NCBI RefSeq assembly: GCF_037975245.1
Contig: NC_092568.1
Coordinates: 35,183,501 to 35,247,500 of the forward strand
DNA: 64,000 bases
Origin: Apostichopus japonicus
Taxonomy: Eukaryota; Echinodermata; Holothuroidea; Aspidochirotida; Stichopodidae
Reading direction: 5' to 3'
Position 1 is the first letter of the stretch. Every line of letters starts with the position of its first letter. Under the pieces are notes generated by a model that did not search any database, was not told the origin of the DNA, and worked only from the letters and a program-made list of their open reading frames with translations. Both the position numbers and the translations under genes were made by a program. This document shows, in pieces, positions 62 through 54,477 of the stretch.

Positions 62-2353
<2,292 letters not shown>

Positions 2354-33059: not shown

Positions 33060-33640
33060 GAATTTTGTCAAAGGGTTAACAATGGGCACCAAAATGGGTC
33101 CATCCATCGCCTGCTTGATCATGGGCCCTTTTACATGGGAACAGACCCATTTTCAACAAACGTTACATCGATGACATACTTAGTGCTGCCATTGGATCCA
33201 GAAATGAACTACAAACCGTTATTAATTGTGTAGGTCTATTAAGTTTCTACTCTTCTTTAAATTTCACCTATGAAATTTCTTCTTCTGTTAACTTCCTAGA
33301 TCTAATGCTATCCATCGATAATTGCGTAATCTCTTCAAATATTTACTTAAAATCTACCGAACTCTCACAAATTATTACTTATTGTACTCATCCAGTCATC
33401 CACCTACTTGTACCAACCCCATTCCCTATTCTCAGATGTTACAAGCTAAAAGAATATGTTCCCGCCATTCTGATTTCGCGTAGGCTTCACACCAGATCAC
33501 CAGATATTTTGAGACGCGTGGTTACCCACCAAAGGTCATTTCAGAAGCGAATGTCAGAATAGAAATGCAAGCTGGATGGAACTACAAAATAAAGAAACAC
33601 ACCTGAGGTAATATCCATTGCAGCAAACCTAACATAATAA
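33060..33640 (+). mobile_element. Decayed Penelope-like RT fragment (copy A)
   Basis: Broken frames give GTKMGPSIACL, then a YIDDI RT catalytic motif, then NFLDLMLSIDN and a distal RGYPPKVI-like phrase. These are signatures of the Penelope-like reverse transcriptase around the YIDD box and the FLD region. Several frameshifts and stops are present. The same fragment lies in copy B, so it predates the duplication. Confidence 0.7.
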
Positions 33641-33691
33641 TTACCGTTTTACCAAAAAGATAATGAACTAGTAAATGTTGACTTTTCCAAA

Positions 33692-35563
33692 TTATCCCTG
33701 CTGGTTAAGCCAATTTGGGAAGGTTGTGCTTACAAAATCCACCATATAATCACGAAGTCTGTCACAAATAGTGTTTGTTAGCTGTGTTTGCCCCTTTGCT
33801 GTTCTGAAAGCTAGCTTAACACCCATCAGAAGCAGAGCTACTTGGTGTCTGTCGCTCTTGTCTGTCAAGCTGTGCTGATGTTTGTCTAAGATTTCTTTAA
33901 TCCACTCTTCAAAGGTTGTATATGCTACTTTTCCTGCTTCTAAGAGCATTTTTGGAACGAGTATCTTCTGAAGTTCAGGTTGTATCTAAATTTCAAGAAA
34001 AAAGGATGAAAGTATACTTAATTTTACAACCTATGAGGTTTACGTTATACGATGTTACCATCACATTATAACAACGCCTTTCATCATTTGACGACAGTCA
34101 TTACTAATACCAATGTACATGTTATTCTGGCAAAGTAAACAATGTTGCAGTTAAAGGTATCTTGCGATTAATCAAAGACTTTTACAAATTGACATTAGTA
34201 ATGGTAAATAAATATATGTCTTGAAACGAATTACAAAGATACTTTTAATTGGTTAAAAAACATTGTGATATGATATTACATTTGTACCTCTAATGTGGGA
34301 ATTACAGATCTCTAATTCATTTTAAAATATCATAACGTTACTCGACCAGACAAGTACGCAGAACGGGGTAGGGGAATGCGACCGTTGCGTACGAACAACC
34401 CCCCCCCCCCAACCCTCCCATTTTCAAAGGTCCACACTTTAGTGGGTAGTGAATGGTCTTTCGTACTACGGGCGTTTTATACTCACTGCATCAAAATTAT
34501 GTCACAAAACAATTTCAATTGGTTGCAAAGTATATATATAGCACAATGCTCCACCAGCTATTCACCTAATATAATGTAAACACTATAGATTCCTTTCCCA
34601 GGACGATGTTCAACAAAAAGGTAGATATCCTCAGTAACTAACACACCACCCCATAGAAAATCAGGCATCAGGGCCTAATCGATATGTAGATATCTTAAAG
34701 ACATCGGAACAAACCTCTTTGTTAAGATTATCTCCTATTTCCTTGAGTCGTTCAGCTATTTCGTGTAATGCTCTCTGGTCAAAGCTCTGGTTATCATCTG
34801 TATTTCATAGCAAGAGAACATAGTCATCGTACAATAGCGTGAACAAAGGGGGAGGGAAGGGCGCGTTCAGTCGAGTTTGTAAGACCCCCTTCATAACAGT
34901 CAGTTTCAACGACCCCTTGGCAACACAACTTACTTTGTAAATCCCTGCAGTGATCTGCTTATGGCCTTCTCATACCCCTACCTAAATCAGTCGGGAAAAT
35001 AATAGACTTTGACTCACACCCACAGTTCAAATCTTGTGCACGCCACTGGTGTTGTGACACCCTCATATCATTCCACACCTCACTCACTCAATCGAACCTC
35101 ACCCCATCCTCATCTCAATTAATGCCCCCACCCCCTTCCCGCACCACCACCACTACAGGCAATATATGTGTCATATAATTTGATTTAAACTAAATGTATG
35201 TCGTCACATAATTACATTCACATCACTCTATATAGGTGACCATAATGCAGCCAAATTATGCAGTTTGTCTACTTTTTGAGTTGTGATTTATACTCTTAAG
35301 CTATGGAAGATACACCTTTGTAAAGTTGCACAACATTGATCTTATTTAGAAACTTATTTCAAGGAAATATCCATCAATAAGCTATGTATATGTATTAACA
35401 TAATACACCGTTCTTTAAAGAATGTGGTACCTTGTTCTTCAGGGGTAACTGGGCCCTGCCCTACCAAAACTGTGGTAAACGGCACTTCGTCATCTTGAAG
35501 CAGTAAGGAGAGTACACATTCGGTATCCCATCGTACTTGTCTGCGAATTGTCACTGACGCCAT
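33692..35563 (-). CDS. BID-like BH3 apoptosis regulator, paralogue A (169 aa)
   Basis: Three exons read on the minus strand: 35,563-35,431, 34,797-34,715 and 33,985-33,692, with GT-AG introns and consistent phases (1, then 0). ATG at 35,563 opens MASVTIRRQVRWDTECVLSL, and the stop lies at 33,692-33,694. Residues 58-72, IAERLKEIGDNLNKE, form a BH3 helix with the invariant Gly-Asp. The last 98 codons (ILVPKMLLEAG..., DRHQVALLLMGVKLAFR, TICDRLRDYMVDFV) resemble the C-terminal helices of vertebrate BID, where a run like LALLLAKKVA precedes the terminal amphipathic helices. There is no BH1 NWGR motif and no clear C-terminal tail anchor, as in BID. BID links death-receptor or granzyme proteolysis to BAX/BAK activation at mitochondria. 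No frame damage is seen, so it appears functional. The gene name rests on motif reading without a database search. Confidence 0.82.
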
Positions 35564-36178
35564 CTTGTGCAGACGATTCTTGTAACAAGAAATTGGGAAT
35601 ACTGATCAGGCATGCAGCTACTGTAGTCAGTTCAGTCACAACTGCCGGAAGACTGTACAGAACAAATTGACAGGCTAGTAAATATGTAAACATTGAAATT
35701 ACTGTCATTTTGAACACTCACTATTAGCTGTTAATTAATGATCTAATATCTCACACTAATTACCATTTTGACGTGCTATTTTTACGCAAAACCTCACAAA
35801 CTTGGAATTTACCCGTTTTTGTAAATTTCACAACATTATTGTCATGAAGTGATATTATGCCTTCCTCTAAGTGCCTACTCCTTCAAGGTCTTTAACCATT
35901 TTCCCTTTGACCGTTAAGTTTCCCCATCGTTAATTCCTACGGTGTCCACTTAAAGAAATACATGAGAAATTTTACGGTTAACTGTTTTCATTTAGGCAAT
36001 TGAGGTGAGTAGATTTTTGTCAGTCAAACAACATCATAACATCCGTCTGCCCTGATCTTACCTTACCTGAGAGTATACAATCCGTGATTATCACAATAGG
36101 CATTACACAAACTAATGTAGCTTAAGATTTGGAATTACGATAGTTCACACAATGCCCTCAGAAAAATGTTCATCACAT

Positions 36179-36425
36179 GGCGGAGTGTATCGCCTAGTGG
36201 TTAACGCCGGCGTCTCCCGGTCATGAGATCCCCGGTTCGATTCCCCGCCGACAGCAATGTGTGTCGTCTGGCAAGGGTGTTGTTCAATAACAACTTCCCG
36301 ACATGGACGTTAAATGGATGTGTGCCGAGAGATTGGCTTCGGTCAGCTTGCGAGTCTATAAGCCTCCATGGCTTCTTTCGCGAGTTCCTGCTTGCGGGAA
36401 GATCACATATACATACATACATTCA
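36179..36425 (+). mobile_element. tRNA-derived SINE
   Basis: It opens with a near-complete tRNA-like head: A box TATCGCCTAGTGGTTAACG and B box GGTTCGATTCC. A tRNA-unrelated body follows (GGCAAGGGTGTTGTTCAATA, GAGAGATTGGCTTCGG) and a (CATA)n-like 3' tail. ATCACAT occurs just before the head (36,172-36,178) and again at 36,402-36,408, a possible target duplication, though its position before the CATA tail is odd. It is transcribed by RNA polymerase III if active, and needs a partner LINE to move. Confidence 0.85.
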
Positions 36426-39400
36426 TCTCTTGATCTGCTATCATGTACAGTTCACCTAATGAAGAAGACACCCACCATTTGACATATCCTTTGACATTTT
36501 ACTTTTCACTTTTATAACTTCATGCACCATTTAAGTAAAAGGTAGTAAACAGTTGACAATTTATTTGCACTTTCATACCTACATGCACCACTCAATTTAT
36601 CTCCAACACTTTCAATATGTATATCATATTTGACAACTTATTTTCACTTTCATATCTTCATGCACCATTCCACTTATCTGTACTACTAAACGTATATCAT
36701 ATTTTCCACTATATTCTTTTCCAAATTGTTAACCTTTGGGACTTCAACACTTTATTACCATCATGTTCTTATTATTAATGTCCACACTGTAATTTCAACC
36801 ACTGTATCTACAACATCACCTCACAAAACTATTATTCTTAACAGCTTCATTTCTTTCGCTACTAATTGCATAACTGGCAAGTGATGTTGTAAACCAACAG
36901 TCAACAGTGTATTGTGTGTGAATTCTAAGCATTTAAGTTTAACAGTTAAGTTTAACAACATTTATCTTAAAGTACATTTAACAGGTATCCCAATATCAGC
37001 CAAGCCAAAACATTTCCAGAACAACCACATGAGACAGCCTACCCTTTCGACAAAGTCTGTACTAAACTTCTCTGTAACTTCTGCATAACACCTACATCCA
37101 AACTTCCCTAACTATAGGTTGCAACCTAAAAATGACTCACCAAGCGTTGGTATTGGGTTGCACACATATATTTCATCGTCAAAAAATGTTAATGAATATT
37201 TGTCGGCAAAATTAACCCATCACTTCACAGCCGACGTTACGCACAGTACGTCACAGCTTTACTGTTGCCATTTACCACAACAAATTTGTGGGAATCTGGG
37301 TTTTGCCACTGTGACATATCTAAAAAATAAATCTACCAATTCATCAGAAACTACTCTTCTTATGAGGTATTGATAGTCACATGTTTACGTAATAGTGTAT
37401 TAGTATGGTTATAGAGTTATATGTGTGTCCACTGATGATACATCTCAAGAAAATAAATTAGAAAAGACTTTCAACTTTGTCGCACAGTTCTAATAATTGT
37501 TACATCATACCATTAGTCAAAGTAAGCAAATTACTGGCAGTGCATACAGGTAACATTCCTTGTAATATCAAGATCAAGTATTCCTTTTAGCATAAAAAAG
37601 AACAGCTAAGACACTCATCATTTGAAACAGTCGAGGTGCGGTTTTAACATCAATACCAGGCAGTATATCTGGGTCTGTTAGCTGTTAGAAAATTATGGAT
37701 CACAGCTACTGTGGGGAAAGCACAACATGGGTCCCGAAGGAAAGAATTGGGAAGCAATGACCAACATTTTAAGGACAACCCCAAATGCTGAGGATCTACT
37801 GACCTGTTTCACCATCACAATCCTTCAAGAAGCACACTACACAACACACTACATCCATGTTGCCAGATTCACCTAACTTATATATTACCAACAAACCTGT
37901 ACACAGTAATACAAACAAAGTATTTCCGTATCGTTTTGTATTTAAGTAACTTCTCTTGAGACTCCATCAATGCCACTTGTCTATATCAACATGGTATTCT
38001 CAAAGTTTAAACCTCATAGGAAATAAATGTTCAAGTCACCTCACATTACAGGACTTTCACCGAGATTCAGAATCCGTCCATTCTCCAGTGCCATAACATC
38101 ACACCGATTATTACTACATGTCAGTGTCATTCATAGTATCAGGTTTCCAAGACTTGCTGTATATATTTATATATTTCTAATTAAGTATTACCAGACCTTC
38201 TGCACCAATGCAAATCCTAAGAACTTTCATGATTTTGTCTTGCCTTGATTTTAACAGCAGCGTATTTTACAACTCTCTTACTTTAAGTGTCATTCATAGT
38301 ATCAGGTTTTTCAAAAATTCAACTTCACTCCACTTCTAACTAGTGTGGACTTGCTGTTTAGATTTATAGATTTTACTATAGTATTATCAGTCTTTTATTT
38401 TCAATACAGTTTCTTTAACACAAGCATCAATTACTTCTTCTTGTCTCATGGTCACAATTCCAAATTGTAGAATATAAAATGTACTTTAAATTATAGCACC
38501 ATTTGGCATCAAGCACGCTTACCCAAACACAAATTTCGCAAAGGCAGGGTGACACCCCCTTACACACCACGACCCTCTCCTTTTTACCCCTCCCCCATGA
38601 CAAACAACTTTTCCACCCCCTCCCTTCCACATATCCTGTACATGCCACTGGATAGAAATGTTTCGAAAACGAGGCTACATAATTTCTCCAGCTCCCTGGT
38701 TTGGCTATCGCATATTATAAGTTCCACATCAGTAGTCTCAATTAGCATTATGAATGTACTGCCTTCCAACTTTTTAGTTGGCAACCATTTGGTCATCTGC
38801 TTCCTTTGCCCACAATTATCAGTAAATCTTGACCACAGTCAACTGGATTCAAACCAAGGTGACCTTGAAAGCTGAAGATCGGGGCCTGTCGTAGCAACTG
38901 AATGAACTTTACTTCCAAAGTACCTAATAACCTACAATGAATCATCCCCATGGCCCATTACGTTCATGTATACACAAAGTAACCACTTCCGGTATCTATT
39001 GCCGAGATCATAACCGCTCAGACATCACAGGAGGCAATGGCCATTTAACTACTGTGATGACGTCCTCCCACTTATCATTCAGCAACCCCTTCATCTATTC
39101 ATTATTCCCTAAATATAGACTCGCATAGGACTTTTACCCACTACTCGCTATCCCCTTCAACCTTGAAAACAGACTCATAAACAGAGTGGATGCGATTTCG
39201 CAACCACATTTTCTAGTTATATCTGTTTTTACCTCCATGCTTATATATTACGTACGCATCTCGAACGTGCGTATACAGCCTACCATGCCCAGTTTGTACG
39301 TGCATTGCATTGTACCATGGAGCTATAAACGGTTCTTCTATAACCCAAACCCATTCTACATAGTTTTCCTCACTCTATTCTGGGTCAGGAATAGATTTTT

Positions 39401-39499
39401 TTTTAAATTTTGTCTCCCTTTTCTTCACGCATCTACACGAATTACAACAACCGAATGTCTGGCACTGAGGCATCGTTCTACACAAAGCCTCTGTTTATA

Positions 39500-39567
39500 G
39501 CTCCATGCTTGAATGTAGTACCGGGAAGCTTAGCTAAGCTTCCCGGTACTACATTCAAGCATGGAGC
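39500..39567. repeat. Perfect 68-bp palindrome, no spacer
   Basis: Two 34-bp arms are exactly complementary about a centre between 39,533 and 39,534. Each arm contains CTCCATGCTTGAATGTAG and CCGGGAAGCTTAG. Outside the arms, ACAAAGCCT on the left and ACGAAGCCT (read inverted) on the right suggest that the symmetry once extended further and was eroded by an 8-base indel. Confidence 0.95.
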
Positions 39568-40149
39568 CTAGGCTTCGTACAACAGTCCGAAAGTAAACTT
39601 TACTGCGGTAGCCTACATGCGAACATTCTTCGCATTGGTGCTGGATAGCGCAATGTAAACAATAAATAGTCTACTGTTCAAACTTATCTTGTGTTACATA
39701 AAGACCACGAAGTCACCGATGAACTACATATATATGACGACTTAACGATGTTTTTTAAACATACCGGTATCTAATTTATAAGAAATTTCACCGAACATTA
39801 AGGAAGAAAATTAATCTGTATTCAAACAAGGTTTTTGTTGTGATTATTGTAGGAACTGTATGCAGCGTACGTGGTTTATATCGCGATCTGAATTCGCCCA
39901 GATGACGGCACGTTCGATACTGAAAGCTTATTTGAAATATCCATCCCGGAAACGATTAAAAAATTGATTCTCTGTTAGAGTAGCAGCTCCCTGATCCAAT
40001 ATTCCTTGGATTTTTGAACTGTCAGATAAAGTAACTCTTTTGAAACACAATGTATCATTTTTATGTCAGAAGGGTAGATTTATGCTGAAGTTCCAGTTTG
40101 AAAGTCTCACGCTCGAGTTAGCCAAATGTAGCAATTAGACCAGGTCTAG

Positions 40150-41500
40150 ACTGCCACTGTGCCAGTGTCGTGGTTTTCTCTTTTATAGTTTAGTTTATAG
40201 TTTAGTTTAGTAGAATCAGGAGGGACACTCAAGTCCGCATCAAGGACCCTATAGGAGAGGGAAAAAACTGAAGACACAAACTCAGACCCGATTACAATGC
40301 TTAAAGTGCTTGTCCAAAGCATTCTTAAACCCATTGACACTAATTGCAAGTACAACTTTCTCAGGCAAACCGTTCCACTCATTCACAACCCTATTAGAAA
40401 AAAGTTATGCCGAATATTAATCCTACTTTGTGACTTTTGGAATTTAAGACAATGACCTCTGGTACAATTGCTATTAGCAAACATGAAAAAGTCGGTCAAG
40501 GATAACTTGTCAAAACCATACACAATCTTGGAAACCTGAATCAATTCCCCACGTAACCTCCTAAGCTCCAGTGTGGTGAGATTCAACAGTTTTAAACGCC
40601 TATAACAAGGAACACTCTTTAAGGAACTAATCATCCTAGTAGCCCTCCTCTGAACCTTTTCAAGTACTTCCTTATCCTTAGCAAAATATGGGTTCCAAGC
40701 CTGCACAGCATACTCCAGATGAGGCCTAACCAAATGCTTATAAAGCCTAACTAATATGTCCTCTTTCAGAAAACTGAAGTTCCTCTTGATCATACCTAAA
40801 ACTCTATTACCTCTTTTAGCAGCTTCAAGACAATGTTTAGAAGGTTGCAGAGATGAGTCAATGTAGATACCTAGTCTCTTTCAACAAAGACCTCCTGTAA
40901 CTCCACACCATTAAGATTGTAGGTATACTTTTGGTTTCTACTACCTATGTGCATTACCTTGCATTTATCAATATTAAAAAGCATATTCGCCATCTCTGAG
41001 ACCAGGAAAAAACCTTATTCAAATCCGTTTGAAACTTCTCAGAATCGCTTTTGGAAGAGACCTCAGAATACAATTTTGTGTCATCAGCAAACTTCTTAGC
41101 TGTACACACAATATCTCCGTCAATGTCATTTATATAGGCAACAAACAACAAGGGACCCAAAACAGACCCTTGTGGAACCCCACTAGTAACATCTTGCCAA
41201 GAAGAATCACAGCCTTTATTTACCACCCTCTGTTTCCTATTACCAAGCCAATACTCGATCCAAGACAGTAAATTCCCATTGACACCCATACTCTTCAACC
41301 TAAGTAAAAGACGCTGGTGGGGCACTTTATCAAAGGCCTTCTGGAAATCCAGAAACACAACATCTACAGACTTATGCCTATTTAGTGAGCTATAGTTACA
41401 TCTTCCATAAACTCAAGGATATTAGTGAGACAAGACCTATTTTGACAAAAGCCATGTTGAGACTGTTCTAATAACTGTATGACAAATGTCGGGGGTACCT
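40150..41500 (-). mobile_element. CR1-like LINE, 5'-truncated
   Basis: Minus-strand frames encode RT motifs in order: FLDFQKAFDKVPHQRLL, SGVPQGSVLGPLLF, FADDTKLYSEV, then the thumb-like HLVRPHLEYAVQAWNP and VQRRATRMI, ending RVVNEWNGLP-like. These are hallmark phrases of the CR1 clade. The frame is interrupted between 40,793 and 40,954 and near the 3' end, and the 5' end (endonuclease) is missing, so the copy is dead. The lower-coordinate end carries an ACTAAACTATAAACTAAACTA tail. The same family tail lies at about 55,990-56,322 on the plus strand. Confidence 0.9.
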
Positions 41501-41547
41501 GTGACATAGACTAAGTTAGATAGTAAGGGAATGATGTATTTCAAACT

Positions 41548-43231
41548 TGGAGGCACAACTTTTCTCTCTATGGCATGAGTTACTCAATTTATCAGCATTG
41601 TTTCTGGTAAAGGCTTACATGTATCACCTGTCAACATTTGTAAAAAAGTAATTATGCCTAGACCTAACATGTTAAACACATTCCAAAACGATGCCTAGCA
41701 AGATCTTGTACTTTTGCCTAAGTCTCTATTACTGCCATAGAATAATGAGTGGTAAGCTAGGCCTAACTTCGAATGCTATTTTCATTACTTGCGAGGCTTG
41801 CGTAGGCTTAATGTTACAGCTGGCTACAGTGTAGGGAATAGGATAGGGCAATTCCTATGCGAATGTTAATCGAGGCCTACAGCCTGTCATGCATGCGTTT
41901 ATCGTAGAATGACTCGAATAAAGCGGTGCACGCTTCCAGCGATAGGGTTATAACCCCGTGACAGTTGGACATGAAAAGAAATTACTAGCTTACCAAGGAC
42001 GTGCCAGCCCGATTTTAAATCCAGACAAACAGAAACACACGTGGAACTGCTAACTTACGTCCAAATCAGTTCATATACGTAGTGTTATAAGCACATGAGC
42101 AGGTTACTTCCTCATAACCTCATGTTTCAGGAACTTGGAAAGTCCCTCGTTAAGGAGGGACTTATATTAGTAGGCAAACGTTTCTAATGCGCATGATTTA
42201 TATAAATCTCTAGCTGGAGCTTTTAGTCCACCTCTTATTTAAAATTGTAACGAAATTTATTTTTTATTCAAATTATAGCACAGAAATTAATTTATGTGGC
42301 ACCTAGCCTCAGAAATGAATCATTTCTGTGCGCCTAGCTCGTAGTTTTGTATTTACCATGCTCTCAAAAATCCGTAATTTGCATAGACCCGAAGTAGGTA
42401 ATATTGAACCAATCATGGATCAGATGCCCCATCACATGTGACCCAAAGCTTTGCAACTTCTGAGCAGTTTTATAGAGGAAAACTAGTTCTGGAAAAGGAA
42501 TCATCCAGTATTCAGGATCAGAATATTGTGGCCAAATAATTTATACCTATTTGTTTTCAATCAGTATCTTGAATCAATGTTTTAATGCGTTTATTTGAAC
42601 TTTAAATTGTATCACAGAGAGAATAAATCATTTTGAAATCAACAGAACATTTTAATCATTTATTTGAGTGGGGCTAAGCTTCCGAAATACCCTACCGAAT
42701 CAGTGGCGGAGCTAGGGGTATTGGTCAAGGGGGGCGAGAATGGTCTGTAGGGGCGCTTCCGACACTATCTAAGCGGAGCGCCACCACGGGTTAGCGCGGA
42801 GCGTACCGAAATTTTTGAGTAAAGATACTCCCTAGATCGCCGGAAATGACCCTTTCCGGGCCTTGCTAATTTGCAGATAAACGTAGTATAAATAGGTGTC
42901 ATCGCCAAAAATATGTGACAAATGTCAATAGGTAGATGAGAGCGCATAAAAAGTCAATAATCGCGAATAAGTAAAAAGTGGTAAAAAGCTGAAAAGGGCG
43001 CCAGCAGTCTATTTGAGTCCGTCAGGGGGGGGGGGGCATCCGCCCCCCTGACTGTATGGACGCTCCGCCACTGTACCGAATGATATTCCCCAGGGCAACG
43101 ATAGTACCATCTCTACCGAGCTACAGACGATATTCGCCACATTACATTATAAGTTCATTAAACATCATACCGGCGAGATATCTGCACAAACCATTATTTT
43201 TTATGATCAAAAATGAAATCCAAAATCAATG
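41548..43231. repeat. Segmental duplication copy A, part 2
   Basis: Collinear with 54,478-54,975 and then 60,830-61,508 in copy B. Shared phrases include CATGAGTTACTCAATTTATC, GCGATAGGGTTATAACCCCG, CTCGTTAAGGAGGGACTTA and CATCATACCGGCGAGATA. Interrupted here by a MITE (42,701-43,073), absent from copy B. Confidence 0.92.
42701..43073. mobile_element. hAT-like MITE with perfect target duplication and an empty site in copy B
   Basis: The ends are CAGTGGCGGAGC and GCTCCGCCACTG. The flanking octamers TACCGAAT at 42,693-42,700 and 43,074-43,081 are identical. The homologous locus in copy B (61,353-61,360) has a single TACCGAAT and no insert. The element is a shorter, reverse-oriented relative of that at 25,156-25,882, with a G run near its right end. 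It has no coding capacity and must be mobilised by a transposase elsewhere. Confidence 0.95.
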
Positions 43232-44389
43232 TTTGTATTACTGTATGTGTATCGCAGTCTATTGATACTTATACTGTTGCTTTTTTTTCTCTTTTCTTTT
43301 TTCGTTTACGACCTGTGTAAGCCGAATTTCCAATTGTTGACAATAAATTCAAATTCAATTCAATTGGGAAAACATTATAAACAATATAAAGGTAGTGCAT
43401 ATTGGTTAATATGACGGGATTTGCAGCAAGGACTAAGAATGGGTTTTGGATCAATACAGGGTCAAGGGAAAGTATGGACTGCCCGGGGAAATATAGTTAA
43501 AGAATAGCGTGTACTCGTTTTCATATAATATACTCCGGGCAAAATAAAGAATGCAGAAAGGGGGCTTGGTGGCATGATCGTCCTCGAAAGGCAACCTGAC
43601 TTACGTGGACAACGGGGAAAGAATGATTCAGTAATAGAATTTTTTTTTTGGACAGTCTTGGCCATATAGTTGGTCGCGATCACATCATTTCCTTACTGAG
43701 TTGCCGGTCACAAGTACCTTGCATACAGTGTAGTACTGTAGTCATGTCCTGCGAAATTGTACTTTTCTGGTTCATGGATTGCAATACCTTTAGAAGGGTT
43801 GACAAAAGACGAGGAAAGTAACACGCAAACACAGGCGTTGTCTTAATGTATGAGAGATCGTTTTCATTCAATTATGTGAAGAATTATGAAAAGCATTTTG
43901 AGTGGATGTTCTTACATGCATAAATAGAAACAGAAACAATCTCTTAACATTAAATTAATTATTCTTAACTCAACAAACCCATTTAAAACATCTGAAGTTA
44001 GCACACTGAATGCTTGTTATTTCCAATAAGCAGGCTGGCCTCATCACATTATGATCTAGCGCCCTCACTTTCATGGCAAGATGACCAAGTTCCCAACATC
44101 ATATCCAAATCTAACCTAGCATCCTTCATTATGCATAACCTAAAGGAGTTCTATGTAAAGCTAACTACAATAACACAAGGTATATAATGAAATCAAATCA
44201 TTACAACTTACTTCTGTGACTGGATGTAACTACAAACCTCTGAACAAAGTTATTGTGGTTCACAGTCACACATGGGTTAGCGGTACAGTCTGATTCAGTA
44301 ATTGGCAGATCCTGTAATAAACAGCATCATAACTATTAAACCAGGGAGCACCGGAACATTTTTTTTATTCCTTGTGCTATTTTTTATTT
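43232..44389. other. Anonymous DNA; possible LINE tail at about 43,300-43,370
   Basis: TGTGTAAGCCGAATTTC followed by GACAATAAATTCAAATTCAA resembles a LINE 3' tail in plus orientation. Nothing else is supported. Confidence 0.35.
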
Positions 44390-44469
44390 GCTATATCTTA
44401 AAAGATAGCCTAGGGTGCCCTGATGAAAATCTGAAATGACTCACTCTCAAATGTTCACACAGCCCCCAC

Positions 44470-45000
44470 CCCTGAGGTGGGGAGGGGTAAAATTGAGATT
44501 ATTTTAAGTATGGCATGGTGAGTATCAAATGAAAGGAAATGATACCAGGAATCCAAATATTTCCCAATACTGAGAGGGGGAACCATAAATGCTCTCATAT
44601 TCCCCATGAACTAGGGGATCCCAGGGAAAGTTCAAAATGGTATTTCATGTAATATTATAGATATTAGATATGACTATCAAATGGAAGGGAAAACCCAGCA
44701 GGAATATTAATCTACATGTTACTATGCTGAAGAGCTGAACCTTTATCAAAAATATTAATCTACACCCACTATTGGCTCGGTTGGGCAACGTGGGTGGGTG
44801 GGGTTGGGAAGGGTAAAAACTAAAAACTGAAGTTTATGAAAGTAAGGCATAATGGGTATCAAATGAAAGGAAATTACATTAGGAATACATTTTCATAAAG
44901 ATAAAAGTGATATTCCCAAACTTTGTCGCATATGCTCACTTTTAGGATGGGGTCGCGGAGGTGGTGGAAAACTCAGCCAGTTTGCAATATATGACGCCTA
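44470..45000. repeat. Degenerate tandem repeat, period about 145-190 bp
   Basis: TATCAAATGAAAGGAAAT or the close variant TATCAAATGGAAGGGAAA occurs near 44,523, 44,668 and 44,855. Each is preceded by a TTTAAGTATGGCATGGTG-like or AAAGTAAGGCATAATGGG-like phrase and followed by an AGGAAT phrase. A GGGGTAAAA-like phrase also recurs. Units are strongly diverged. Confidence 0.6.
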
Positions 45001-46550
45001 ATTTTTGAAGATAAATTGGGTAAGGGAAGCCTGTGTCATGAGAGCCCTCCTGTAGGAGAGCCTCCAATGATATAAGCATAGGTATCTTCAGACAAAATCG
45101 TACCCCAAGTCAGAAAAGATGTTCAGGGCAATTCCAATAAGACAATGTTTCTCCTTCTTTTGGCATATCACATAGTACCTATAATTTGTTACTCCTTCAC
45201 TACAGTTCTGGCTGCACTCTGGAGTTTGCATGGTTGAATTTTTTATTCCTAAAAAGAATGGTATATAAATCTATGAGGCCTAACTGTAGCTGAAGCCAAA
45301 CAGGTAAAGTGGGTATAAACCTGTTTTACCAGTAAAATTCTCTCAGATCAAGGATTCTCCCCATCCCCATCTCTACCAAGCACCACACCACTGGTATCCC
45401 ACATAGGAAGCGGGGATTGTGGGAGTTAATCATTCAAAAGACCTCTCCCCAGGGCGGCGATCACAAGATGATGACCCCCATTTCATAAATTCATGGATCC
45501 TCCCTAGCCCCAGTCAAAAATGTGGAGGGGCCACCAGAACTATTCAAGCCGAAAAAATCTTTTCGTTCTCGCATAAGGGATAATCACCAGATACACAACA
45601 TTCAATCTAGCCTAAGGATCCTTAATTATTGAAAACATTGTCAACTTTTTTATTTGCCTCAATTAAATAGTATAAGACTAACCCCCAAAATAAGAAAATT
45701 CATGAACATAAATTTACTTTGAAGTTGCAAAATATAGCCTAGGCCCTAGCACCAGTATGCATATAAGTAGCCTACCCTTAAATATTGAAAATATTCTGAA
45801 ATGGGGAGGGGGACACACCCTCCTCTCAGACCACTCTCTAGGACGGCGATCACAAGATGATATATATGGCCCCCCTTTCATAGAATCATTGATCCGCCCT
45901 TGCCAGCTTATCAAGTACATCTTACAAGATAGAGCATCTATTTATAAAAAATTTTAATGAGAGGGCACATACCCTCACCCCATCCCCACCTCCCCACCCC
46001 CCCCCGGGTACGTCTTTACGCTCGGCTTCGCCTCGTCATTCAGAACCCCTCCCCCTTCCTTTCTCAAAATCCTGGATCCATGCCTGCTGCCTACATACAT
46101 ACTGTAAGTTATTGCATTTATGCTAGCCAGTAACGTTTAGGCCAATGTTAGGCTAGCCTAACATAGCACAACTGCTACACACACTAATGTATAGGGATAA
46201 TTATTTAGGAAGTTGTTAAATATCATTGATAAAATCAAGTTTTGTCATGAACATTGCATATGTTATTATTTTGAAATGTACAATTATTGATATACCACTT
46301 ATATTCTACAATTCTTAAAGCTAGTTTGGTTAACAACGTCATCAGATGGTGGTCATCCAACGGCTGTTGTTGCCTGTATTGTGGCGGCTGAGGAACGTGC
46401 ATATAGCTTTTACTACAATTGTAGATGACAGCTACCCTTAAGATGACGTCAACTCGGCAGCCTGGTCTTGAAGCCTGTAAGTAAAAATGAGAGTCTACTT
46501 CATGTGTTCCCGCGTCTTGAACTGTTTTCGTTTGGGAAAATTCCAAATTC
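45001..46550. other. Anonymous DNA with transposon-end fragments
   Basis: Two stretches (about 45,450-45,545 and 45,838-45,905) share GCGGCGATCACAAGATGAT or GACGGCGATCACAAGATGAT and a TTCATAGAATCATTGATCC-like end. They are probably remnants of one TIR family related to the 18,782 element. No gene is supported. The open frame at 46,235-46,567 (minus) resembles nothing known. Confidence 0.4.
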
Positions 46551-46554
46551 CATT

Positions 46555-46735
46555 CTGAGTGTTTCACTTACGTATCAAACGCACAGTGATTCAAACACTT
46601 GGTATTGCATTTTGAGTGTTTCACTTACGTATCAAAGGCACAGTGATTCAAACACTTGGTATTGCATTCTGATTTTTTCACTAACCGCTGCACCACCGTA
46701 AGCCAAACACATGGTATTGTATTTTGAGTGTTGTG
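46555..46735. repeat. Three-unit tandem repeat, period 57 bp
   Basis: GTTTCACTTACGTATCAAA starts at 46,561 and 46,618, with a diverged third unit about 57 bases later. Each is followed by GTGATTCAAACACTTGGTAT-like sequence. The first two units differ by only a couple of bases. Confidence 0.85.
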
Positions 46736-46746
46736 GCGACCATGAG

Positions 46747-47141
46747 CATAGGCGTAGGAGGCGGGGGAATGAGGGGGGGGGGGGCTGCAGCCCCCAACCA
46801 AACATTTCTGTGAAAATTCGGGCAATATGCTGAGAATTTTTCGGGCACCTATACCGAAAGAAAAATAATTTGCAATGTGTTTTTCAATGGTTAAACTAAT
46901 ATTATTGTGATCATTATTATTGAAACGACTTCCCCAATAATTCTAATCAATGTGGAAGGGTTATAACATGGCAAATGATTGTATGTTATTGGCATGCGAT
47001 GTAATAACCGATGCATGCTTATATGATATGCACTTAAATTTGTTGAACGCGCGCGGGGCGCGAAAAATTTTGTTTATATTTATCGGGCAAGTCGTTACAG
47101 CCCCTCCCCCCCCCCAATCAAATTGGGCTCCTTCGCCTATG
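46747..47141. mobile_element. Non-autonomous TIR element (CATAGGCGWAGGAG ends)
   Basis: The left end CATAGGCGTAGGAG and right end CTCCTTCGCCTATG are inverted with one mismatch, with G/C runs just inside both ends. TTCGGGCA and TATCGGGCAAG phrases occur near both ends, and the middle is AT-rich. The flanking octamers match at only 5 of 8 positions, so the target duplication is eroded or the true ends are slightly offset. Confidence 0.65.
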
Positions 47142-47363
47142 TCCAAAAGCTTCACAATTTACCACTAAAACGATGTTGAAGAGGATGAAATAAACTAATG
47201 ATGGTCTCAAAAATCTGGATGATTGAAGGTGATTTAAGTCATTTTAGAAAATCTTGGGTGAAACAAGAAGATTCCGCGACGGGAGCTGGCAGATAAGTTG
47301 GGGTGGACTATGTTAAACTTTGAGCTCTTCTAGCTCAAAATCCAAAACGTTGTAGTGGCAAAA

Positions 47364-47513
47364 GTTGAATGTGCTGTGATAGCCCAAGCCATCAGCTATC
47401 ATATGGTGGGTAGGACATGTCAGTTGAAAACTATTATCTACAATTAATTGTGGGCGACACCTGTTGGCAAAGTTGTGATAGCTGATGGCTTGGACTATCA
47501 CAACACATTCAAC
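47364..47513. repeat. 38-bp inverted repeat around a 74-bp spacer
   Basis: Left arm 47,364-47,401 and right arm 47,476-47,513 are inverted copies with two mismatches (core AAGCCATCAGCTATCA). The transcript would fold as a long hairpin. No target duplication is evident, and no family is recognised. Confidence 0.85.
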
Positions 47514-49320
47514 TGGGGAAATAGGCCACTTTCGGACAAAAACGAAGATACAATAGACCAGATCTTAGGCCAAAATCTATGTAAAAAATGTTGATGTAAG
47601 TAAACTTCGGCATGCTTGGCTATTTCAAAATAAAAATCCATCGGGAAAATTCTATGAAACACAGAGATCGTACAAATTTTTGAGTGAGCAGAGTTTACTG
47701 TTGTTCTGGTTGGAAGTTTGTGCGTATATCGTGGCTTGGAAAGGAGGAAGATAAACAAAATACTACTTTTCACATAAGGTTGTAATATACACACGCCGGA
47801 TTAAATAATGAATAGCTGTACGGCCTATATATTAGAGTCCTGCCTACTGAAATATTAGTTCTTCAATTTTGCGCTATTTTTGCCAATCTAGACTACCAAT
47901 TCTTTAGACAACATTTAGGTTAGGCTTTTATGGCCTCACTCACAACATTTCACTCTCCTTCGCACTACGTATCGCCTCCCGTGGCCAGCCAACGCCACAA
48001 ACGTAAAGCCCCTCACAACCCCACCCCCACCCCACCCTTGTGTTTTTTACAAGGTGATGTGCGCTATTGGCTTCAGGCGTAAAGCCTACATGTTTTCATG
48101 GCGGCATTCAAAGTTTTGGTAGTGCTAATGCCGGGCTTAGGATTCCTTAACTTCGGGGTAATTTTTGAACAGACGTATACTGGCAGTCCTGATGCACTGA
48201 CCTACATGACGTACTTTCTTGTACCCGCTGATTCCACTGACCAAACTTGAGCATGCCGATTACCCAAAAATAATATACCAGATCATAAAATCAGCAATAT
48301 AAACTAAAATAAAGCCATTTTGGGTTAAATAAAAAAGTCATGCATGGCTTATTGTCTTCGAAAACAATCGTACAATAACATTTTAAATAGACTTTTTGCC
48401 CAATACCTCATGGCGTAGGCTATTGCCTTCGACAAAAATTGGACAAGACACAATTTAATAGGACATTGGGCATTTTTGGCCGAAAACAGGTCAATCTGGC
48501 AGCCCTGCTACACAGGGGCATCAATGATGGGGTGACAGGGGGATACGTCTCCACTTTCTGAATGGTGGGGGACACAATATCAAATGTCCCCAGGTTTAGT
48601 GACTGACTCGTTTAGGCGATTGTCCCCCCAGGGTTAGTGATTGACTCATGTAGGCGCTAGGCATATCATGCTCATAATGACTCATATAATATATATCATA
48701 ACGGGAGCTGAAACATTGTGCTATGAGATAAGTAATTATTCATATTGAATTCTCATGTGCTCAACCCCGATGATAAAATAGAACTTTTTAACTGGACTGA
48801 AATATGAATACGAATTGCAGTTACAACGTAAATTAAATGAGGAACCACGTCTATACATCGCTGATGCTATCTGCTAAGCCTGGGTGCTAAGCTGCGAGTC
48901 ATGTTGTAGTTATAACAATATTATCCATTTTACCTCAAGTTCTATAATTCAGTAGGACAGAGTTTCACCAAATATTTTATTTGCAATTAATGCCAAGAAC
49001 AGTCCCCCCCCCCTCCCCTCCTCCCCTCCTGAGATTTCCACTTCATAAATGAAAGTTGGTGTACGACAATGTGGTTTTCTGGATATGTGCTATTTCAGTT
49101 AGTTTTAGCGAAATGTTCGTATCATTTCTTCTGATTTCGTTAGTCAGTCGTCTATACAACCTCAAGATTCTAGGCACGAATTCTAGGAATGGCGTTCAAA
49201 CAGAGCATTATTAAGCAAAGTCACACAAGAAATAACCTGGACATGAAAAACCAAAATCCGAACGACTGATCCCCTCTCAGCTCAACCCCAGTCCCCATTG
49301 CTTGTCGACTATGAGGGTGC
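47514..49320. other. Anonymous intergenic DNA
   Basis: No gene is supported. A two-copy direct repeat of about 37 bp (GTCCCCAGGTTTAGTGACTG and a diverged neighbour ending CATGTAGGCG) lies at about 48,587-48,660. A C-run patch lies at 49,003-49,030. Confidence 0.4.
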
Positions 49321-49329
49321 GATCATCGT

Positions 49330-49404
49330 CAGGTGTGTAGCACGATTCCCCTACAAGGGGAACATTATGCTACACATGATCTTAGCCAAAAGGCCGCTCA
49401 TCAC
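49330..49404 (-). ncRNA. U2 snRNA-like 5' domain, probably a pseudogene or chimera
   Basis: On the minus strand GGCCTTTTGGCTAAGATCA, preceded by a TGATGAGC lead-in, matches the conserved 5' stem-loop of U2 snRNA. After it the sequence reads GTGTAGCAT where U2 has GTGTAGTAT, the branchpoint-recognition region. Instead of the U2 stem-loop II and Sm site there is a strong hairpin (49,334-49,376) with arms TGTGTAGCA and TGCTACACA plus an inner TTCCCCT/AGGGGAA. No Sm site or stem-loops III/IV follow. It is a U2-derived pseudogene, a SINE with a U2-like head, or a divergent small RNA. Confidence 0.5.
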
Positions 49405-50924
49405 GTACATGCATGTTCGCGAAGGTGATGACCTTGTGCTTCTCGGTGTTCCTCAACTGCCTTTATAGATTCTACTAAGCCAACGGCCCTGTATCGTTAC
49501 TATATATAGGTATTTACTTTATATAGGTATCTTTACTTTATATAGGTCGTAATGTTCCGATAATGCGAACATGCCCAAATACCTATTGCAACAGTGCTTA
49601 TTAAATACACGTAGGATACCATATGTGTGCATGTTGTAAGCATCTGTATAAAAAGATTATTTTATTCGTGGGTGTAAAGTTTAAGAAAAGTGTCTGTTTG
49701 TGGTTTAAGTTCTAGTTCTATCAATCATGATAAAGGGCCTAGGTAACACCCGGTTGTTAGATATATACGTCTTTTTTAATTTAAGTCTAATCACTTGTCA
49801 GATGTGACTATTGTTAAAGTATGTCATGACTCACATGTCAACTCAGGAACCAAACAGAAGCAAACTTGAAGATTTCTACATGTAAGTCCGTCCCCTGGAC
49901 CCTCGACGGGGATCCCTGGACACCATAAGGGGACCCCACCCGATATAGGCTTCGTGTCAAGTGGGTGGCAGCAATATCCATGTCCAGTCATTTATATCCC
50001 CCCCCCCCAACTTTTTAATTGGGATTGAAGCCACTGCTGTTACAGTCGGCCAGCGAATGGAACCAATTATCATAAAGGGCGTGTCTTAGCAAGGTTTTCG
50101 TGCCTATATCACAGAGATGTATACATTTCTGTAGCTTGTATATGGATCTGGCGCTTTTTATAGAAAGAGCACCCTCTATTTATTCGAACGAAGATATCAA
50201 GTTTCGCTCGAAGCAACATTGTTACACTTTGAAGTCTCACAGTTGACGTTTGGCGGTTATAAGACTTGTTGATGACGCGAAGGGGTCATAAACCACATCT
50301 GAATAAAGTGTTATCCAACTTGTTTAAACTGTACCAAGATGGTGCATAAACTAGTTTATTCAACATTTAAAGTATGTAGTACATGGATCACACTTTGTGG
50401 CATCTTTGTACATTGTTTTTAGAATGAAGGCTATGCAAACTGCTTAACCTTCGAATTTCAAAATTAATTTCATACTTTAAATTGCTTATCGAAAGGTAAT
50501 TGTTAGGTTATGAAGCCAACATCAAATCCTAGTTATACAACCATGAAGCTAGCTCCATGGTACAACACACTATATAAACTTGCCTGTATAAGTTTTCGTT
50601 GTTGGTTCATTTTGACGATGTGTAAACAGCGTACGTGCGACACCTCATGGAATTATTATTATTATGTTATTATGCAAATTCGATGGTCCCTTTAACACCT
50701 CCATACTTTTTTTTACAACACAAGAAAGCATCACTCATTCATGATTAGGAAATAATAATTAATTGTCAAATGATTAACTTATGATATTGTGAACTTTGCA
50801 CTGCTTATCTTGGTATCCCAGTCTATTGTCGATGCAGATATTTCTATCGGTATCCTTTGATGAAAAGTCTTAATCAAATACAGTTGTTGATGATACGAAG
50901 GTTCATGCAGGTGTTGATGTTGCA
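49405..50924. other. Anonymous intergenic DNA
   Basis: No gene is supported. A short TTTATATAGGTATCTTTAC-type direct repeat (two to three copies) lies at about 49,500-49,550. Confidence 0.4.
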
Positions 50925-51269
50925 AGTGGATATTGACAACCTAAGCATACACATTCCAATTGTATCACATGTTCACGATTGAAAACAAAGTTTGAAAAAC
51001 ACCTGTCATGACGGAATCTCAGACAGCCTATACGATGATCCACAGCCCGGAGTATAGGGAAGACTTTATTTCTTAAAAAATAATAGAAATATTTTCAAAC
51101 AACCATATCAAGAGGTACTGAGAAGTTGTTGAGAAAAGTTTGTGATTAGTTTTACAGAGTAGCATATTTTTCTCTCCCCATATCAGTTTCAAATTTTCGT
51201 TATAACATAAGTAAATATTCACTCGTTCATGATTGCATGGGAATTCTAATCAAATTGTGAATTGCAGAT

Positions 51270-51670
51270 GTTGTCAAAGGGGTGCCGGGCCATGGGCATC
51301 AAAATGGGTCCATCTATCGCCTGCTTGGCCATGGGCCCTTTTACATGGAAACAGACCCATTTTCAACAAACGTTACATCGATGACATAGTTAGTGCTGTC
51401 ATTGGATCTAGAAATGAACTACAAACCTTCATTAAGTGTGTATGAAGTTTCTACTCTTCTTTGAACTTTACCTATGAAATTTCTTCTTCTTCTGTTAACT
51501 TCCTAGATCTAAATGCTAGCCATCGATAATTGACTAATCTCTACAAATATTTACTTTAAATCTACCGACTTTCACAAAATATTACTTATTATACTCATCC
51601 AGTCATCCACCTACTTGTACCAACTCCATTCCCTATTCTCAGATGTTACATGTTAAAAGAATATAGTCAT
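51270..51670 (+). mobile_element. Decayed Penelope-like RT fragment (copy B)
   Basis: This is the homologue of 33,060-33,640, with GIKMGPSIACL-like and RYIDDIVSAVIGSRNE phrases and then a broken FLD region. The 3' part is deleted relative to copy A. Confidence 0.7.
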
Positions 51671-51720
51671 TACCGTTTTACCAAATAGATAATGAACTAG
51701 CAAATGTTTACTTTTCCAAA

Positions 51721-53665
51721 TTATCCCTGCTGGTAAATCCAATTTGGGAAGGTTTTGCTCACAAAATCCACCATATAATCACGGAGTCTGTCACAAATAG
51801 TGTTTGTTAGCTGTATTTGCCCCTTTGCTGTTCTGAAAGCTAGCTTAACACCCATCAGAAGAAGAGCTACTTGGTGTCTGTCGCTCTTGTCTGTCAAGCT
51901 GTGCTGATGTTTGTCTAAGATTTCTTTAATCCACTCTTCAAAGGTTGCATATGTTACTTCTCCTGCTTCTAAGAGCATTTTTTGAACGAGTATCTGCTGA
52001 AGTTCAGGTTGTATCTAAATTTCAAGAAAAAAAGTATGAAAGTATAATTATTTTTTCAACCTTTGAGGTTTATGTTATCATTTTAACGCCTTTCATCATT
52101 TGTCGACAGTCATTACCTTACAAATGTATATGTTATTCTGGAAAAGTAGACATTGCCGTGTTTAAAGATACTTTGCGATTAATCTAAGAGATTTACAAAT
52201 TGACATTATTAATGGTAAATAAATATATATCTTGAAACGAATTACAAAAATACTTTTAAATAGGTAAAAAACATTGTGATATGATATTACATTTGTAATT
52301 TGGGAATGAAAGACCTCTAATTGATTTTAAAATATCTTATCGTTATAATCGTCCAGACCAGTATGCAGGACGGGGTAGGAAAATGCGACCGTTGCGTACA
52401 AACAACTCCACCCACCCCCTCCCATTTTCGAAGGTCCACATTTGACTGGGTAGAGAATGGTCTTTCCTACTACAGGCGTTTTATACTCACTGCGTCAAAA
52501 TTATGTCACAAAACAATTTCAAATGGTTGCAAAGCAGATAAAGCACAACGTTGCACCAGCTATTCACCTTTAGTTATATTACTTAAAAACTGTAGATTCC
52601 TTCCCCAGAACGATCTTCAACTAAAAGGTAGACCACCTTACTAGATGACACACCACCCCATAGAAAATCAGGGGTACGGGTATAATCGATATGCAGATAT
52701 CTTATAAAGACAACGGAACAAACCTCTTTGTTAAGATTATCTCCAAGTTCCTTGATTCGTTCAGCCACTTTGTGTATTGCTCTCTCTCGGGCATATATCT
52801 GGTAAAGATCTGGCATTTCTTCTTTTGTAACTGTTTTTGTTATAGTTTCATAGCCTCCAGTTTCTTCGTTTCTCTCAGCCACCTCAACTTCCGGTAACTC
52901 ATCATGCGGTATGTCTTCATATTCTGGGGCTGTATTTCATAGCAAGAGAGCTTAGTTGTCGTACAATGACGTGAAAAAAAAGGTGAGGGAAGGGCGCGTT
53001 CAGTCGAGTTTGTAAGACCTTCTTTATAACAGTCCGTTTCAACGACCCCTTGGCAACACCACTTACTTTGTAAATCCCTTTGGTGATCTGCTTATGGCCT
53101 TCTCATACCCCTACCTAAATCAGTCGGGAGAAATATAAACTTTGAATCCCACCCACCTTCAAATCATGTGCATGCCACTGGTGTTGTGACACCCTCATAT
53201 CATTCTACACCTCATTCAATCAAACTTCACCTCATCCTCATCTCAATTACCCCCCACCACCTTCCCTCACCACCACCACATACAATATATGTGGTATCTA
53301 ATTTGATTTTAAATAAACGTATGACGGCACATAATTACATTCACATCGCTCTAGGTGATATATATGCGGCCAAATTTTGCAGTTTGACTGTAATATATTC
53401 ATAACCTATGGAAGATAGACCTATGTAAAATTGCACAATATCTTATATAGAAAAATATTTCAAGGGAATGTTAGTTTAAAAAGCTATGTGTATGTGCTGA
53501 CACAAGACACTGTTCTTTAAAGAATGTGGTACCTTGTCCTTTAGAGGTTACTTTGCCCCCACCAGACTGCACTATGGTAAACGGCACTTGGTCATCTTGA
53601 AGCAGTAAGAAGAGCACATGGGTGGTATCCTGTCGTACTTGTCTGCGAAGAGTTGCTGAGGCCAT
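51721..53665 (-). CDS. BID-like BH3 apoptosis regulator, paralogue B (210 aa)
   Basis: Three minus-strand exons, 53,665-53,533, 52,929-52,724 and 52,014-51,721, join with GT-AG introns and the same phases as paralogue A. ATG at 53,665 opens MASATLRRQVRQDTTHVLFL. The BH3 helix VAERIKELGDNLNKE falls at residues 99-113. The C-terminal exon (98 codons with stop) has the same length as in A and differs from it by scattered substitutions (for example TFPNWIYQQG against TFPNWLNQQG). Exon 2 is 123 bp longer than in A. It adds an acidic, Thr-rich segment (PEYEDIPHDELPEVEVAE, TITKTVTKEEMPD) in the position of BID's protease-sensitive loop between helix 1 and BH3. Activity as a BAX/BAK activator is inferred from similarity. 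The frame is intact throughout, arguing against a pseudogene. Confidence 0.83.
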
Positions 53666-54083
53666 CGTGCGTAGACGATTCTTGTTACAAGAAATTGGAA
53701 ATATTGATCCAGCATGCAGCTATGGTCAGTTCAGTCACAGCTGCCGGAAGACTGTACAGAACAAATTGACAAGTTACTGACCGTCGCATCCATACTTAAG
53801 ATGTAAACATGAAAATAACTGTCATTTTGTACAGTAACGATTTGTTGATGATCTAATATCTCACGCTAATTACCATTTTGACGTGCTATTTTACGCAAAA
53901 CGTCACAAACTTGGAATTTGCCTGTTTTAGTAAATTTCACAACATTATTGTCATGAAGTGATATTATGCCTTCCTCTAAGTGCCTACTTCTTCAAGGTGT
54001 TTAGCCCTTTCGCCTTTTGACCTTTAAGTTTCCCCATCGTTAATTCCTACGGTTTCAGCTTAAAGAAATACATTAGAAATTTT

Positions 54084-54477
54084 ACGGTCCATTTTCAGAC
54101 GTCTAGTTTAGGAGCCTGTATTTTCAGACAAAGAAAATCATAACGAAAAACCATGATTGGTTCATTCATTGATAGATTTCATGTAATCACAAAGGGGCAG
54201 GTAGCCTATACATACCTAGCATGTCACTTATGAGTTATGATGATTACAAGCCAAAGTGCCACACTTCATGACAATGTGTGTCTTAGGTTCAGAATGAGGA
54301 CCATTGTTCAAATCCACGTCCCATAACCTTAAGATTCCCTTTAACAATACAATTCTTCACAACATGTGGTGATTCAGATTTTCAAACAATGTCTGAGGAC
54401 TTGGGATTTCCTTGGTCAAGTCCTAAAGAGTATTCTTGTTTACGAGGTTTCAGACTTTGACCACTATTGCCCTCAAT
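54084..54477. other. Copy B-specific segment between duplication blocks
   Basis: About 390 bp with no visible match in copy A and no coding potential. It may be the ancestral spacer, with copy A having diverged or gained its 5.5-kb insert here. Confidence 0.4.

Follow-up and report, generated by a model that had tools for sequence, protein, structure and literature searches.

Bid and Bfk (BCL2L15) are the described proteins that come closest to the genes considered here. In the accessible text of PMC8814693, both are Bcl-2 folds that lack a usable groove and that, by a proposed mechanism, remain inactive until caspases cut the loop ahead of the BH3 helix. The same text describes Bfk as a BID-like member of the Bcl-2 family with BH3 and BH2, and reports a pseudo-BH4, ECIxNxLxxxFL, common to Bfk and Bid. 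A "BID-like" group is listed as a main clade in the part of the BCL2DB description that is accessible (PMC3945527). Bid itself is said, in the available sections of a 2022 survey (PMC8998228), not to appear before the cartilaginous fishes. Here we describe two genes, A and B, in a 64,000-nucleotide stretch of the genome of the sea cucumber Apostichopus japonicus (contig C8, positions 35183501-35247500; hereafter the window). A first-pass annotation had called them a tandem pair of BID-like genes. The finding is wider than that. A and B belong to a seven-gene, BH1-less family of BID/Bfk-type Bcl-2 proteins, for which the name BID appears to be partly right.

A and B clearly form a tandem duplicate, with both copies intact. 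Spliced from the window DNA, each consists of three coding exons on the minus strand, with GT-AG borders at all introns, intron phases 1 then 0 and no internal stops (Table 1), which bears out the earlier description of an intact three-exon pair with matching phases. The BH3 cores attributed to both genes are indeed present (IAERLKEIGDNL in A and VAERIKELGDNL in B), and neither gene has NWGR, the corresponding columns reading SDRH. A degenerate BH3 pattern matches the window twice with up to two mismatches, at the A and B cores, and does not match in 100 shuffles; it was built from A and B themselves and hence is no independent test. Exon 1 of gene A codes for residues 1-44 plus the first base of the following codon. 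Exon 2 is 83 nt long in A vs 206 nt in B, a difference of 123 nt, which makes the pre-BH3 loop of A 41 codons shorter.

Each gene sits in one copy of a duplicated segment about 2.9 kb long. Nucleotide identity between them is 282/294 (95.9%) in the last exon, 605/699 (86.6%) in intron 2, 519/601 (86.4%) in intron 1, 55/63 (87.3%) in the final 63 nt of exon 2 and 102/133 (76.7%) in exon 1. Divergence is therefore greatest in exon 1 (23%), intermediate in the introns (13-14%) and smallest in the last exon (4%), where synonymous changes are few. What might produce such a pattern? Exon 1 may be changing fast, or the rest may have been homogenised by conversion.

A and B are not merely a pair. With gene B as query, a search of the genome (35 contigs, 671,581,487 bases) returned eleven matches to exons with E no greater than 1. 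Together with the fetched loci, these resolve into A, B, one copy of exon 1 and five loci on contig C1 (D-H), so that the family comprises seven genes plus the exon-1 copy. Seven is a lower bound because the genome search scores the best candidates only; when G, D, F and E served as queries in turn, no eighth locus having a last exon appeared. The BH3 exon of all five C1 loci has a phase-1 start and a phase-0 end, like that of A and B (phases read by eye), and the BH3 exon and last exon are open at all seven loci. A profile of four exon-1 sequences did not recover the first exon of E, F, G or H (best E 1.3). In the exon-1 copy, the sequence downstream of the exon matches window positions 49409-49947, themselves 3' of B, which means that this copy lacks exons 2 and 3. 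Running the Pfam BID model directly on the genome gave no candidates, as it did in 14 control genomes, a search that is uninformative because the genes are split into exons.

What if these genes are decaying copies, or artefacts of the gene models? The reduction of a third copy to exon 1 would fit, as would an exon 1 that diverges more than the introns between A and B. However, frames are open and splice sites canonical in A, B and D despite saturated synonymous divergence, and the BH3 and last exons are intact at seven loci, which makes this explanation very improbable. In the last exon, A and D differ with a proportion of synonymous differences (pS) of 0.79, which is saturated, and a nonsynonymous proportion (pN) of 0.28, values that point to long-term constraint on this exon. 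For G and H, the synonymous and nonsynonymous divergences (dS and dN) in the same exon are 0.13 and 0.04. Chance or pseudogene status of A and B was rejected on their splice sites, open frames and constraint.

A and B probably encode small BH3-bearing bundles of the Bcl-2 type, BH1-less and anchor-less, with the architecture of the BID/Bfk/Bcl-G type. The hydrophobic positions and the GD of BH3 are kept in all seven members, and A59, G66 and D67 are invariant. Neither NWGR nor its tryptophan occurs in any of the seven, the columns reading SDRH in A and B and SDKY, SERS, EDKY, SDPY and IDPY in the others. The BH2 tryptophan is present in every member and GGW in none. The C-termini of A and B read W-x-x-Q-Q-G-stop, five residues past the tryptophan, and carry no tail anchor. 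At the BH2 position, human and mouse BID have Y, Bfk has FIQGQGGW and Bcl-G has WIQQHGGW. Retention of the BH2 tryptophan throughout the family, together with the stop before GGW is complete, is why we file it under the BH1-less BID/Bfk/Bcl-G type and not under BID proper.

The genome's own multi-motif Bcl-2 genes may offer a clue to how this architecture arose. Four of them (loci L006, L007, L008 and L010) have S/T/NW-G/V/W-R/K at BH1, and the multi-motif BH2 exons that were read by eye run through GGW (QW in L011) into a GT donor. A and B end at the second glycine of the GGW motif, just before the place where this post-GGW intron would lie. We infer from this that they descend from a multi-motif gene whose anchor exon was lost. 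A separate exon, in locus L015 (C1:5414639-5414884, minus strand), has a complete BH2, WIDSQGGW, with NPGMEEIS replacing NWGR, and perhaps belongs to another BH1-less gene with a Bcl-2 fold.

Profile searches place the family near BID. Against the hidden Markov model of Pfam BID (PF06393; curated cut-off 25), protein A scores 25.1 bits (E 1.5e-5), just passing, and B scores 22.7 bits (E 8.3e-5), below it. The Pfam Bcl-2 model gives almost equal scores, 24.3 bits for A and 24.4 for B, both below its cut-off of 31.4. Four further Pfam hits of protein B, none better than E 0.044, are to unrelated families. With the threshold relaxed to E 1, three of the seven family members match the BID model and four the Bcl-2 model. 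When gene B alone is compared with the PDB, mouse BID ranks first, but at E 0.15. A profile of all seven members, in the best 60 of 108 PDB matches, again puts mouse BID first (E 1.4e-5), with Trichoplax Bcl-2-like 4 second (8.9e-5). Next come a designed repeat protein (0.0018), which is the first unrelated chain, a BID peptide (0.0027), an insecticidal protein (0.0061) and then BAK chains. Judged by these matches, the link of the family to the Bcl-2 family is firm and that to BID moderate.

Trees point in the same direction. In a 19-row tree, BID and the family group together with support 80/97, and with 88/98 once the BH1 and BH2 columns are removed. Adding Bfk and Bcl-G (21 rows) yields a group of BID, Bfk and the family at 85/82, or 78/85 with Bcl-G included. 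Bootstrap support for joining the family to BID/Bfk is 78-88% across trees, in which Bfk and Bcl-G are long branches. In approximately unbiased (AU) tests on the 21-row tree, placing the family with BID alone (p-AU 0.366), with Bfk alone (0.358) or with Bcl-G alone (0.281) is not rejected. The trees place the family beside BID and Bfk, although not decisively.

Pairwise comparisons add partners of more than one kind. Local alignment scores were expressed as z relative to 300 shuffles. The best partners of B are the sea cucumber's own BAK-like protein (9.1), mouse BID (7.2) and Bfk (7.0), and the alignment of A to human Bfk begins in helix 1 and reaches the C-terminal half. To look for the pseudo-BH4, exon 1 was compared with the first 55 residues of Bfk, within a set of 44 comparisons; the numbers of shuffles scoring as high, out of 1000, were 4 for A, 5 for D, 80 for C and 483 for B. 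By this measure exon 1 is like the first helix of Bfk in A and D, hardly so in C and not at all in B.

Several observations weigh against a place for the family beside BID and Bfk. Human BID is weak in the seven-member PDB profile search (E 0.13). The pairwise z values of A are 13.3 with Trichoplax Bcl-2-like 4, 12.8 with the own BAK-like protein, 12.2 with human Bfk, 9.3 with mouse BID and 3.9 with human BID. Those of D are 8.7 with Bcl-G, 8.4 with the BAK-like protein, 7.1 with Bfk, 2.4 with human BID and 2.2 with mouse BID. Such scores do not single out BID. The AU tests also leave standing a grouping of the family with BAKs (p-AU 0.257) and one with human BAX (0.145), and no starred branch joins the family to BID or Bfk. 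The column of Bid K146 and Bfk R110, a basic helix residue, is V in all seven members; one column earlier there is K in D, F, G and H and Q in A and B, and the alignment is possibly off by one. The A-B comparison gives dN/dS 0.73 over comparable codons and 0.77 in the last exon, the latter from three synonymous changes only, and by itself hints that constraint is weak. Finally, the fold model for the last exon of B alone, predicted from a two-row alignment with the last exon of A, is uninformative. It has five main helices at a predicted local distance difference test (pLDDT) score of 64, and with this low-confidence model Foldseek returned no match at 0.001 (best E 3.9). In VIA, the BAK chain 9clb reaches Z 5.7, tenth among the 72 entries at Z>=2, and a Bcl-w chain reaches Z 4.1, values in the range of unrelated helical proteins, and neither BID nor Bfk is among the VIA rows listed.

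Perhaps, then, these are echinoderm-specific derivatives of a multi-motif gene of the BAK/BAX type in which BH1 and the tail exon disappeared independently, so that they converged on the BID architecture. The prominence of the BAK-like protein and Trichoplax Bcl-2-like 4 as pairwise partners, the second rank of the latter in the PDB profile search and the unrejected BAX and BAK placements would all fit, and because the last exon ends at the conserved post-GGW intron site, loss of the tail exon would have been a simple route. Nevertheless, the best trees hold the family with BID and Bfk even minus the BH1 and BH2 columns, and in Pfam the BID model equals the general Bcl-2 model in score. We see convergence as possible rather than probable. 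Either by descent or by convergence, the comparisons indicate, the family is of the BID/Bfk/Bcl-G type.

How does the family compare with each described protein? With BID it shares a BH3 ahead of a C-terminal helical half, the lack of NWGR and of a tail anchor, a chain end near the BH2 position and the Pfam match, and IGD-x4-IQP-x-L is common to mouse BID and A. It differs in the BH2 tryptophan (Y in BID), in the unmatched K146 and in having its BH3 in the second-to-last coding exon, a position that the available text of PMC7022251 ascribes to BH3-only genes apart from Bid. The likeness to Bfk (PDB 7ccl/7ccm) extends to length (163 aa vs 169 in A), to a BH3 and a C-terminal BH2 position without BH1 or anchor, and to helix 1, where TEC..LL.D is shared with A and E.T..I.N.LL.D with D. 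However, Bfk has a complete GQGGW plus five more residues, a DEVD/S site ahead of its BH3 that is absent from A and B, and R110, which is not matched. Bcl-G (BCL2L14) also combines BH3 and BH2 without BH1, and is the best pairwise partner of D, but it has 327 aa with a long N-terminus and a complete HGGW, and lies on the opposite side of the best tree. Trichoplax Bcl-2-like 4 (6wgz) aligns over the entire BH3-to-BH2 stretch, but possesses NWGR and GGW and is filed as BAK-like.

The identity given in the first-pass annotation thus holds in part. That these are BH3-bearing, BH1-less and anchor-less Bcl-2-fold proteins near BID is supported by Pfam, the PDB profile and the trees; a BID-like C-terminal half fits the Pfam match and the missing tail, but not the BH2-type tryptophan. 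BID in the strict sense is not supported, with B below the Pfam cut-off, Bfk equally close and, in pairwise scores, the own BAK-like protein too. Strict BID orthology is possible, but the comparisons stop short of it. The proposed bearing on death-receptor signalling gains no support from A and B, in which no BID-like caspase site of the LQTD/G type precedes BH3. In a motif scan upstream of BH3, none of A, B and D has an aspartate with G, S or A as the next residue. Paralogue F has ETD/S and EAD/A there (motif only).

The anatomy shared with Bfk and Bid suggests that the sea cucumber family also stores its BH3. At rest, the BH3 helix of an A/B-type protein would be buried in the helical bundle, and the protein, having no BH1 and so no canonical groove, would itself bind no BH3. 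Activation might come from cutting or changing the pre-BH3 loop where a site exists, or otherwise from raised expression or modification. The exposed BH3 would then bind guards of the BCL-2/MCL-1 type and trigger BAK/BAX. With its shorter loop, gene A is expected to be controlled by expression and not by cleavage. If any member links receptors to mitochondria through cleavage, the ETD/S motif makes F the candidate; A and B, having no site, would be controlled otherwise.

A different idea is that these Bcl-2-fold proteins have little or no killing activity and serve other roles, as suspected for Bcl-G. The role of Bcl-G in apoptosis is questioned in the accessible part of PMC10244440, the BH3 of mouse Bcl-G and that of Bfk are called non-functional in that of PMC9171138, and A and B have no caspase-type site. 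However, the hydrophobic positions and GD of BH3 are kept in all seven members, and we think this explanation unlikely.

Are the other components of such a pathway present? Pfam finds 15 Bcl-2-family exon matches in the genome, nine above the cut-off, with BAK-, BOK- and MCL1-like exons recognisable by eye. Death-effector domains (DEDs) give 60 matches at E up to 0.1, of which 32 exceed the Pfam cut-off and most lie on contig C16. Partners and upstream parts of the pathway are therefore encoded; their use by A/B-type proteins is putative. The C16 matches include a large tandem expansion of DED exons at about 10.2-11.1 Mb, and one DED match (C1:19956525) is about 40 kb from gene F. Tentatively, grooveless BH3 donors of the BID/Bfk type may predate vertebrates, reaching back to the deuterostome ancestor. 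The sea cucumber could then have expanded them to seven and divided the labour among F-type members with caspase-type sites, fed by DED genes, and A-type members that lost the loop and are controlled by expression.

Other reports bear on how old this protein type might be. In the accessible text of PMC8998228, the search that gave echinoderm BH3-only candidates used Bim, Bad and Bmf as its seeds, and the candidates are predicted to be disordered, unlike the sea cucumber family. No BH3-only homologues were detected in bivalves, according to the available part of PMC3634015. The accessible part of PMC2246300 describes numerous Bcl-2-family genes in sea urchin and amphioxus as difficult to assign, so relatives of the family may already be counted there, unnamed. 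No report of an echinoderm BID, Bfk or Bcl-G was recognised in the open-licence literature, subscription papers and protein databases being beyond reach. Should the family be homologous to BID and Bfk, proteins of this type predate the vertebrates. The family offers specific echinoderm genes for two questions: does a folded BH3 protein couple receptor signals to mitochondria, and by what route did the BID/Bfk type lose BH1 and the anchor? If the family is convergent instead, it provides a clear example of the BID architecture evolving on two occasions.

Table 1. Genes A and B, their exons and duplicated segments (window positions), and the related loci elsewhere in the genome.
Feature	Position	Strand	Detail	Basis
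Gene A	33692-35563	-	169 aa product	splice model
Gene A exon 1, putative helix 1	35431..35563	-	start codon at 35563	splice model; exon-1 paralogues in B, L001, D
Gene A exon 2, short loop + BH3 helix	34715..34797	-	IAERLKEIGDNL	splice model, motif search
Gene A BH3 core	34727..34753	-	ERLKEIGDN	motif search
Gene A last exon, C-terminal Bcl-2-fold half	33692..33985	-	ends FPNWLNQQG-stop; BH2-like W, without GGW	
Gene B	51721-53665	-	210 aa product	splice model
Gene B exon 1	53533..53665	-	start codon at 53665	splice model
Gene B exon 2, long loop + BH3 helix	52724..52929	-	VAERIKELGDNL	splice model, motif search
Gene B BH3 core	52736..52762	-	ERIKELGDN	motif search
Gene B last exon	51721..52014	-	ends FPNWIYQQG-stop	splice model
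Segmental duplication copy holding gene A	33082..35978			
Segmental duplication copy holding gene B	51292..54088		~18.1 kb from copy with A	
Exon-1-only copy in L001	L001 6499-6630, C8:35272031	-	~35 kb from gene B	
Locus D	C1 ~20.015-20.017 Mb		three exons found	
Locus E	C1 20.010-20.011 Mb		BH3 exon + last exon only	
Locus F	C1 19.997-19.998 Mb		BH3 exon + last exon only	
Locus G	C1 10.053-10.055 Mb		BH3 exon + last exon only	
Locus H	C1 10.124-10.127 Mb		BH3 exon + last exon only	

The surroundings of the two genes contain pieces of mobile DNA. The duplicated flank beside gene A has an open reading frame with RYIDDI that by eye resembles part of a retroelement; against Pfam it gave no match at E 0.01. 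Reverse-transcriptase fragments (Pfam RVT_1) occur at 40954-41412 (minus strand, E 1.6e-19), between genes A and B, and at 62326-63342 (plus strand, E 1.3e-7). A perfect palindrome of 68 nt was spotted by eye at 39500-39567. A tRNA match at 28842-28911 (plus strand) scores 29.8 bits, barely above the Rfam gathering score of 29. Near the start of the window, an exon at 1832-2353 (plus strand) encodes a SPRY domain (Pfam E 6.6e-20), which we take to resemble a TRIM9-type C-terminus.

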